Below, one piece after another: positions 8,387-18,064 of a stretch of DNA of 64,000 bases. Made by a program: the position numbers and the translations under genes. This DNA comes from Devosia nanyangense (lineage in GTDB: Bacteria; Pseudomonadota; Alphaproteobacteria; Rhizobiales; Devosiaceae), in the NCBI GenBank assembly GCA_016213505.1, contig JACRAF010000004.1:1-64000 (forward strand), in the 5' to 3' direction. Under the pieces are notes generated by a model, which saw only the letters and a program-made list of their open reading frames with translations, was not told the DNA's origin and made no database searches. Positions within the stretch are counted from its first letter, which is position 1. Each line of letters begins with the position of its first letter.

Positions 8387-8468
8387 GCAGTTCACCCCGC
8401 GCCGTTCCCATACCGAAGCTGAGCGGCGCGTTCAGCCAGTGTTCACCCGACGCCCACTAGACGCCCGC

Positions 8469-13478: not shown

Positions 13479-13611
13479 CGCCGAGACTTAGAACAGGCCG
13501 ACAGGTGCGGTGCCGAAGGTGCGACTGGTCGGCGCGGGGAACTTCGGGGGAAAGCCTCGTGGCAGCCAAGACTCACACCCAAGACTCTGCTAGGCAAAGA
13601 TTAACCCGCTT

Positions 13612-13626
13612 GTTCTAGTTTTGTTC
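13612..13626 (+). promoter_or_regulatory. LexA (SOS) box upstream of the R-M cassette
   Basis: GTTCTAGTTTTGTTC is a perfect GTTC-N7-GTTC, the LexA operator of alphaproteobacteria, with the usual T-rich spacer. It ends 33 bp before the GTG start of the methyltransferase, where a promoter would lie. LexA repression of the restriction-modification genes is inferred from the motif and position; binding was not tested. Confidence 0.7.
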
Positions 13627-13659
13627 TTGCGCTACGTTCGGTGGTGCGGAGGTCCCAAA

Positions 13660-14295
13660 GTGAACCTGCACATCAGCAACACCATACTCGACCTTGCGGG
13701 AAAGACCCGCGGCGAGAAGTACCGCACCCTGCTCGCGGATCCGCCCTGGCGGTTCATCAACCGCACCGGCAAGGTGGCGCCGGAGCATCGGCGCTTGACG
13801 CGCTACGACACGCTCTCAACGGACGAGATTTGTCAGTTGCCGGTGTCTGAAATGGCCGAAAAGACGGCCCATCTCTACCTCTGGGTACCGAACGCCCTTC
13901 TGCCCGAGGGCCTCAAGGTCATGGAGGCATGGGGCTTCCAGTATAAGTCCAACATCGTCTGGCACAAGGTGCGTAAGGACGGCGGATCGGATGGCCGTGG
14001 AGTGGGATTCTACTTCCGCAACGTGACCGAGCTTTTGCTCTTCGGCGTGCGGGGCAAGAACGCTCGTACCGAAGCGCCCGGCCGCAGTCAGGTCAACTAC
14101 ATGTCCTCGCGCAAGCGCGAGCATTCGCGCAAGCCCGACGAGCAATACGAGCTGATCGAGAGCTGCTCCCAAGGGCCATATCTCGAGATGTTCGCCCGCG
14201 GCACTCGTCCCGGCTGGACCTATTGGGGAAACCAGGCCGACGAGAGCTACAAGCCGACTTGGGAGACGTACGCTTACAACTCGGCGGCCGAATGA
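13660..14295 (+). CDS. MT-A70 family DNA adenine methyltransferase
   Basis: 211-residue N6-adenine methyltransferase of the MT-A70 class. The catalytic DPPW lies at residues 27-30, followed by AHLYLWVPNALLPEGL and WGFQYKSNIVWHK (about residues 91-103), and the C-terminal SAM-pocket part LIESCSQGPYLEMFARGTRPGW. The GTG at 13660 is chosen because GGAGG sits seven bases upstream; a TTG further upstream (13621) would lie on the LexA box and has no such site. The stop overlaps the ATG of the endonuclease gene (ATGA), so the two are translationally coupled and the enzyme probably protects the host recognition site. Confidence 0.92.
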   Translation: MNLHISNTILDLAGKTRGEKYRTLLADPPWRFINRTGKVAPEHRRLTRYDTLSTDEICQLPVSEMAEKTAHLYLWVPNALLPEGLKVMEAWGFQYKSNIVWHKVRKDGGSDGRGVGFYFRNVTELLLFGVRGKNARTEAPGRSQVNYMSSRKREHSRKPDEQYELIESCSQGPYLEMFARGTRPGWTYWGNQADESYKPTWETYAYNSAAE

Positions 14296-14903
14296 GCGGA
14301 CTGCCGAAGATCGATCTGATTCCCGGCTGGGACTGTTACGACTGGCGCAACGCGCGGACGATCTTGGAGCACGGGCACCCGAGCGAGTGGGGCGACATCG
14401 TCGATGTGCTGACCGCCGCGCGGTTGCCGCATTCGGAATTGGCAGCCAAGGGCAAGAACAAGACGGAGACGGCTGCGGCCATCGATTCCAAGTTCTACGA
14501 GCGCGGCTGGGTCGAAAAACAGTTTGAGACAAAGATCGTCGTGGATGAGGTCGAGAGTGCGAGCCCGACACACAAAGTCGACTGCTTTAAGGGGAAGATC
14601 GCCCTGGAGGTCGAGTGGAACAACAAAGATCCATTTTTCGACCGTGACCTAAACAATTTCCGGCTGCTGTACGATCTGCGTGTCGCAGATGTCGGCGTCG
14701 TGGTCACGCGCTCGACGGCCTTACAACATTGGCTGAATCAGAACTACGATATGTTCGCCAAGGCTCACGGCACGTTTGGTGCGTCGACGACACACTTCGA
14801 CAAGCTTGAACCACGCATCCTCGGCGGCGGGGCCGGTGGATGTCCAGTACTCGTGTTTGCTATGACCCCGGCCATATATGTGGATGATCGCGCGAAGTCT
14901 TGA
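14292..14903 (+). CDS. BglII/BstYI-like type II restriction endonuclease
   Basis: 203-residue protein resembling the BglII family. The predicted metal-binding site is D97 (HKVDCFKG), E106 and E108 (IALEVEWNNKD); the spacing D-x8-E-x-E matches BglII D84, E93 and Q95, with Glu replacing Gln. The following FFDRDLNNFRLLYDL and VGVVVTR segments are also typical. It overlaps the methyltransferase by four bases, an arrangement that couples their dosage. The target is probably a GATC-centred site, by family analogy only. Composition is less GC-rich than the chromosome around it. Confidence 0.85.
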   Translation: MSGLPKIDLIPGWDCYDWRNARTILEHGHPSEWGDIVDVLTAARLPHSELAAKGKNKTETAAAIDSKFYERGWVEKQFETKIVVDEVESASPTHKVDCFKGKIALEVEWNNKDPFFDRDLNNFRLLYDLRVADVGVVVTRSTALQHWLNQNYDMFAKAHGTFGASTTHFDKLEPRILGGGAGGCPVLVFAMTPAIYVDDRAKS

Positions 14904-16239: not shown

Positions 16240-17895
<1,656 letters not shown>

Positions 17896-18064
17896 GAGGC
17901 GAAATCCTGCCGCTGCTGATGATTTGGCGCCGTATGTAGGGGAAGCGCGTCGGCCGGGCAACAGCGCTGCGTAAAGCCGCGCCGTAGGGCTAGCCAAGCC
18001 GATGCATTATCGTTAATACGTGACCAGGGAGCGTGGGATCGACTGCGCCGTTCGGGAGAGCCCA

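Follow-up and report, generated by a model that had tools for sequence, protein, structure and literature searches.

The DNA analysed here is a stretch of 64,000 nucleotides from Devosia nanyangense (the window). At positions 13612-13626 of its + strand lies the 15-mer GTTCTAGTTTTGTTC, a predicted LexA operator of the form GTTCN7GTTC according to its sequence, its fit to a matrix derived from lexA promoters and its conservation across loci. It is followed by a putative ribosome binding site read from the sequence (GGAGGT, 13648-13653, +) and, 33 nt downstream of the box, by the GTG start codon (13660) of a 211-aa DNA methyltransferase of the MT-A70 family (M, 13660-14295, +; PF05063, E 6e-29), which carries a DPPW motif. 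The stop codon of M and the ATG (14292) of the next gene overlap as ATGA (14292-14295). This second gene codes for a 203-aa BglII/BstYI-type restriction endonuclease (R, 14292-14903, +), assigned by a PF09195 match (E 1.9e-39) and a structure model, and it is probably co-transcribed with M, as judged from the gene overlap. The initial annotation had described an exact GTTC-N7-GTTC ahead of a GTG-started MT-A70 gene whose stop overlaps a BglII-like endonuclease gene, and both the sequence and the Pfam matches agree with that description.

The ADPPW motif of M (residues 26-30) is invariant in 27 aligned rows, the window's own included, and the closest named M, among the best 80 of at least 588 loci, comes from a Devosia MAG (84% identity). 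Two GACTC sequences, which are GANTC sites of the CcrM type, are found 42 and 29 nt before the box (13570-13574 and 13583-13587, unstranded). Type II restriction-modification (R-M) systems are usually controlled by a C protein or by self-repression by M. The YCII gene and M are separated by 180 nt, a gap that contains no ORF of its own of 60 aa or more, and hence no small HTH gene as expected for C-protein control. On the other side, an AIPR-domain gene (PF10592; 14940-16130, -) with a PADLOC match to AbiU (E 1.6e-10) converges on R; among the 122 M loci compared below, it is present in the window only (E 1e-8).

The structure model of R (pLDDT 88.6, pTM 0.87) was used in a fold search, in which the BstYI structures 2p0j, 1vrr and 1sdo were the sole matches below E 0.001 (TM 0.61, 15-16% identity). 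BglII was not among the best 50 of the 163 matches of this search, and sequence searches of the PDB with R returned nothing useful. Residues D85, D97, E106 and E108 are invariant in alignments of 8 and of 12 rows, which exclude L165 and L144 (in-frame stop), with no one-to-one mapping on BstYI. Hexamers were counted in 147,720 bases of the same genome (the window and L031-L050): AGATCT occurs 16 times against 44.2 expected, GGATCC 17 times against 32.7, AGATCC 23 against 37.9 and GGATCT 19 against 38.1, several other palindromes being equally low. Together, the four RGATCY hexamers are mildly depleted (75 against ~153 expected), which would weakly fit the specificity of R. Homologues of R with ~52% identity were also found in Mesorhizobium phage Lo5R7ANS and in the Nitratiruptor phages NrS-2 and NrS-3.

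Comparison of the box with chance expectation and with lexA promoters

GTTCN7GTTC occurs twice in the window, against 1.59 +/- 1.29 expected from shuffled sequences, and the motif alone was therefore rejected as evidence. The genome as a whole (G000, 4.19 Mb) has 111 matches, compared to 38 for the reversed pattern, so that most single matches mean little. A matrix for the scoring of boxes was built solely from the lexA-promoter boxes of the family; two boxes were present in all of the 30 lexA loci examined, out of 56 genomes with a lexA match. With this lexA-only matrix, the window box ranks 6th-7th, tied with an identical copy, among 100 of the genome's 111 boxes, and ranked near it are a lexA box, the box of a Y-family polymerase gene (Pfam) and that of a gene read as uvrA. 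The same type of box is found in this genome at lexA (two boxes), at the Y-family polymerase gene and at genes named by reading as imuA-like, dnaE2-like, uvrA-like and comM-like. The box of the gene read as imuA comes 12th and that of the gene read as comM 24th, the box of the dnaE2-like gene lies outside the first 25, and recA has, as read from the sequence, only a box with one mismatch. A genome scan for the box and its comparison with SOS genes had been proposed in the initial annotation, and the high rank of the window box together with the boxes at lexA and the imuA-like gene speaks in favour of its reading.

The other window match, at 8430-8444, precedes by 55 nt an ORF read as FAD-dependent oxidase-like and is probably due to chance (score 14.5, 20th of 100). 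The second copy of the identical 15-mer (L031:2752-2766; G000:C47:91751-91765) is located ahead of a 118-aa gene that has no Pfam match and may be a new SOS gene.

What raises the window box above chance is its fit to the lexA matrix, together with its conservation before homologous M genes and the enrichment of the 7-nt spacer only, both described in the next section.

Conservation of the box upstream of M genes

Of 397 genomes of the order, the genome under study included, 30 have an M homologue and 20 a BglII-type R. In ten relatives of the order, as in the window, the box is located 26-37 nt before the M start. For a broader comparison, 122 distinct M loci were assembled from the window, 80 named genome contig loci (the best 80 of at least 588 confirmed) and the loci found by searches of the order and the class, 5 duplicates being dropped; a further 80 M copies from viral contigs (IMG/VR) were kept outside this set. 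In 45 of the 122 loci, the 250 nt that precede the first gene of the M unit contain the exact box. Only the 7-nt spacer is enriched, spacers of 2-6 and 8-13 nt occurring in 0-5 of the 122 loci, and upstream of the M unit the pattern CTTGN7CTTG was found in 1/122 loci and inverted half-sites in 0/122. In the flanks of the same loci, 14 of 2224 windows of 265 nt contain the exact box (0.63%), compared to 37% of the M units; the outcome that the initial annotation had named as a refutation, a box equally frequent at random positions, was thus not seen in these flanks.

By taxon, the labels of L135-L214 having been assigned by hand, the exact box is present in 27/54 Hyphomicrobiales loci, 6/10 Rhodobacterales, 3/8 Rhodospirillales/Azospirillales, 2/5 Caulobacterales and kin, 1/13 Sphingomonadales, 2/4 alphaproteobacterial MAGs and 3/15 class members without a name, as well as in 1/9 non-alphaproteobacterial loci and 0/4 unidentified MAGs. 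LexA control of M would thus not be universal, since 65 of the 109 alphaproteobacterial loci are without an exact box. A box with one mismatch was found at the 7-nt spacer in 24 of these 65 loci, against 5-10 at other spacers. Among the viral-contig copies, only 6 of 80 carry the exact box in the 400 nt ahead of M. The gammaproteobacterial LexA motif is CTGTN8ACAG; it was absent upstream of M from the 17 loci searched for it (9 non-alphaproteobacterial, 4 from unidentified MAGs and 4 from alphaproteobacterial MAGs), and the looser CTGN10CAG appeared there once, in L180. As the comparison between loci shows, the 15-mer is a predicted LexA operator that is conserved as a promoter element attached to M.

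Gene arrangement and position of the box

R genes were detected by tblastn with the window R (E 1e-4) and their starts were estimated from the alignment. A BglII-type R was detected in 92 of the 122 loci; the box is present in 9 of the other 30, a class that may include distant R genes. In convergent M/R pairs, the exact box lies upstream of M in 22 of 49 and upstream of R in none of the 49, two of which are shortened on the R side. When one mismatch was allowed, 40 alphaproteobacterial convergent loci gave 27 boxes on the M side, with 3-9 for the wrong spacers, and 3 on the R side, which is the background level (2-8 for the wrong spacers). The box in all likelihood follows M, and its conserved target would be the modification gene.

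For pairs on the same strand, a box ahead of the first gene was found in 8 of 23 M>R> pairs, the kind to which the window belongs, and in 5 of 19 R>M> pairs (5 of the 18 alphaproteobacterial ones). Since the box precedes the first gene in these pairs, both M and R are probably under its control. In L174 and L310, two R>M> loci entered in these counts as boxless, an exact box separates R from M and lies directly ahead of the latter, 72-81 nt from the M match. An association between arrangement and box on the tree was also considered and was abandoned, as it would be based on only 5 starred pairs, too few of them independent.

The initial annotation had proposed that release by DNA damage could raise restriction or alter the balance between methylation and cleavage. 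Of these two effects, the first would be possible only where R shares the transcript of M, as the ATGA overlap suggests for the window; across the relatives, the target kept is M, and the R side of convergent pairs is devoid of exact boxes. The second is the better of the two, with a shift that would be towards methylation, given the difference between the M and R sides.

A recurrent chromosomal site beside an ettA-like gene

In seventeen Hyphomicrobiales loci, M is followed at a distance of 1.25-4.3 kb by an ABC-F gene that was read as ettA (16240-17997, -, in the window), and the box is present in 17/17. The ettA-like genes of the other loci are 74-86% identical to that of the window. The promoters of this site were aligned on their exact boxes, which makes the GTTC halves necessarily identical, and their pairwise identity is 25-30%, and 35-41% directly beside the box, values that are lowered by the ungapped alignment; the last four spacer positions reach 81%. 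Because the box is kept in all 17 loci amid diverged promoters, its retention looks like selection and not like recent copying.

M and the box are constant at this site whereas the partner varies, being a short R in tandem or a long R in convergent orientation. In L135 (4137-5623), R is replaced by a 363-aa protein without a Pfam match and a PIN-domain gene (Pfam), in L139 (4043-5594) by a similar pair whose PIN-like gene was identified by reading (363-380 aa for these proteins), and in L118 the partner is a DndB-domain protein. This is a possible exchange site for defence genes. The boxed M of L173, a locus from a Brevundimonas MAG, faces a convergent gene (L173:4116-6473) whose product combines DndB and Card1-like endonuclease domains. 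The link between box and M recurs outside the ettA-like site, as 27 of the 92 alphaproteobacterial loci not seen there have an exact box, and these belong to several orders, Rhodobacterales and Caulobacterales among them.

Other methyltransferases and control genes

C5 methyltransferases were chosen as a negative control and had to be dropped as such, as 6 of the best 30 C5 loci fetched from the order have an exact box upstream (other spacers, 0-2 of 30); they became part of the finding instead. The boxed loci are L317, L320, L324, L326, L331 and L337, the last one without the T-rich half. L320 is accompanied by Vsr, L324 by HNH, L331 by HNH and Vsr, and L326 by a NaeI-type endonuclease together with another gene, read as Vsr. 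No exact box was found in the order upstream of 30 type I hsdM genes (wrong spacers, 0-6), nor upstream of 30 ribosomal rpsB genes (wrong spacers, 0-2). The genome under study, which is 91.75% complete, gave no PF02384 match for an hsdM-type gene. Boxes at C5 and MT-A70 methyltransferases and not at hsdM would fit a need that only type II systems have, because type I systems have a proteolytic alleviation that is independent of LexA cleavage.

Promoter elements and GANTC sites

A near-consensus -35 element, close to TTGACA, occurs 16 nt before the box in 7 of the 29 promoters with a close box, which would place the -10 element inside the box; the window promoter is without this TTGACA. A fixed -10 element relative to the TTGTTC at the box was weak as a candidate, and the -35 element at -16 is better, yet not general. 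GANTC is present 20-40 nt before the box, mostly at 28-31 nt, in 16 of these 29 promoters, against 3.1% of flanking windows. All 16 belong to Hyphomicrobiales (16/21 of the promoters of this order), and most of them share the ettA-like site. The GANTC sites may tie M to the CcrM/GcrA cell-cycle control. In GcrA promoters, GANTC has another position than here, where it lies upstream of the -35 element.

Proposed regulation and alternative explanations

From the sequence comparisons, it is highly probable that the operon of the window is under LexA/SOS control. We infer that LexA binds the box and keeps M, and in the window probably also R through the overlap, at a basal level in the undamaged cell; upon DNA breaks or gaps, RecA would be activated, LexA would be cleaved and M would rise. 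Repair synthesis, replication stress or self-cutting would create unmodified sites and thus breaks, leading to SOS, which would lift methylation ahead of the destruction of the chromosome by R and in this way supply the antidote. The breaks made by R would themselves switch on M, a feedback that would restore protection. Such a loop from R-made breaks to M is supported by two observations, as given in the available parts of the reports: knocking down a Mycobacterium smegmatis type II methylase yields a transcript profile that overlaps the SOS regulon, with a lethality that silencing of R relieves (PMC7647400), and R-M activity out of balance triggers the SOS response (PMC3874152). The best explanation as a whole is a LexA operator on M through which SOS would raise modification, as a transcriptional form of restriction alleviation, and we hold it to be likely, with some reserve. 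Because the conserved target is M, antidote supply is the most likely purpose, and we hold this protective role of M induction only a shade less firmly.

Instead, SOS could serve as a trigger of defence, with damage from phage attack or prophage induction derepressing the whole R-M system for more restriction. The co-directional R and M of the window and of other tandem loci, with a box before the first gene of both M>R> and R>M> pairs, are in line with this idea, which we nevertheless regard as unlikely, since R genes with a promoter of their own have no exact box and one-mismatch boxes at background level only, and since box and M stay at the ettA-like site while their partner gene changes. 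Programmed suicide, by which SOS would raise R and make heavily damaged cells digest their own genome, could likewise draw on the overlap and probable co-transcription of R with M in the window; M lies ahead of R, however, and would be co-induced, and the convergent loci have no R-side boxes, making this explanation very improbable.

According to another view, M itself would be the SOS effector, in an epigenetic or repair-related role, and the endonuclease would be incidental. The boxed loci without a detected BglII-type R suggest that M may act in its own right, as do the unmatched protein and PIN-domain gene in place of R in L135 and the similar pair read in L139. Against this, three quarters of the loci (92/122) have a BglII-type R, the lack of an R may be due to contig ends or to divergence, and boxed C5 operons with NaeI-type or HNH genes point to R-M as the common factor; this role is rather improbable. 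A chance match, or the site of another regulator, would be compatible with the near-expected number of motifs in the window, but is scarcely credible in view of the spacer-specific enrichment, the retention in 17/17 loci with diverged flanks and the fit to lexA promoters.

In a wider reading, LexA would be a control protein for type II R-M systems of Alphaproteobacteria in general, where damage or self-restriction would lead through SOS to the antidote, in a negative feedback adopted by the unrelated MT-A70 and C5 methyltransferases and combined in Hyphomicrobiales with a GANTC element (CcrM-type, cell-cycle). We put this extension forward tentatively.

Comparison with known systems

It has long been asked how the hosts of type II R-M systems survive the exposure of unmodified sites by damage and repair, and the well-described answer (ClpXP) concerns type I systems. 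A LexA operator retained with M in several alphaproteobacterial orders would be a concrete and testable answer. If true, the modification genes of R-M systems join the SOS regulon, and DNA-damaging conditions alter methylation as well as restriction barriers, which in turn would affect phage infection and gene transfer. Among the matches listed in a search of open-licence PMC articles, a collection outside which most subscription journals lie, none dealt by its title or the start of its abstract with a type II methyltransferase or R-M system under LexA control.

The system resembles type I restriction alleviation in that the host would be protected when damage and repair make unmodified sites. 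In E. coli EcoKI, however, alleviation is proteolytic, through ClpXP, and does not need LexA cleavage, according to the part of PMC11109961 available, whereas here it would act through the predicted transcription of M; hsdM genes are without boxes. With BglII/BstYI type II R-M systems, it shares the Pfam BglII domain, the BstYI fold and an adjacent methyltransferase, and it differs by the predicted LexA control and by an M of the MT-A70 type. With the alphaproteobacterial LexA regulon, it shares the operator sequence GTTCN7GTTC and the promoter position, both common to lexA of the same family; the available sections of PMC6473078 and PMC12907096 name no type II R-M methyltransferase among the targets. 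The nearest prior case to a LexA-controlled M, as far as the accessible text of PMC12907096 describes it, is ScmA/VsrA of Caulobacter, in which loss of a methyltransferase also triggers SOS and vsrA has an internal GTTCN7GTTC. ScmA is a solitary C5 methyltransferase, and the box is inside the gene of the Vsr-like nuclease and not ahead of the methyltransferase, unlike the predicted operator before M in the window.
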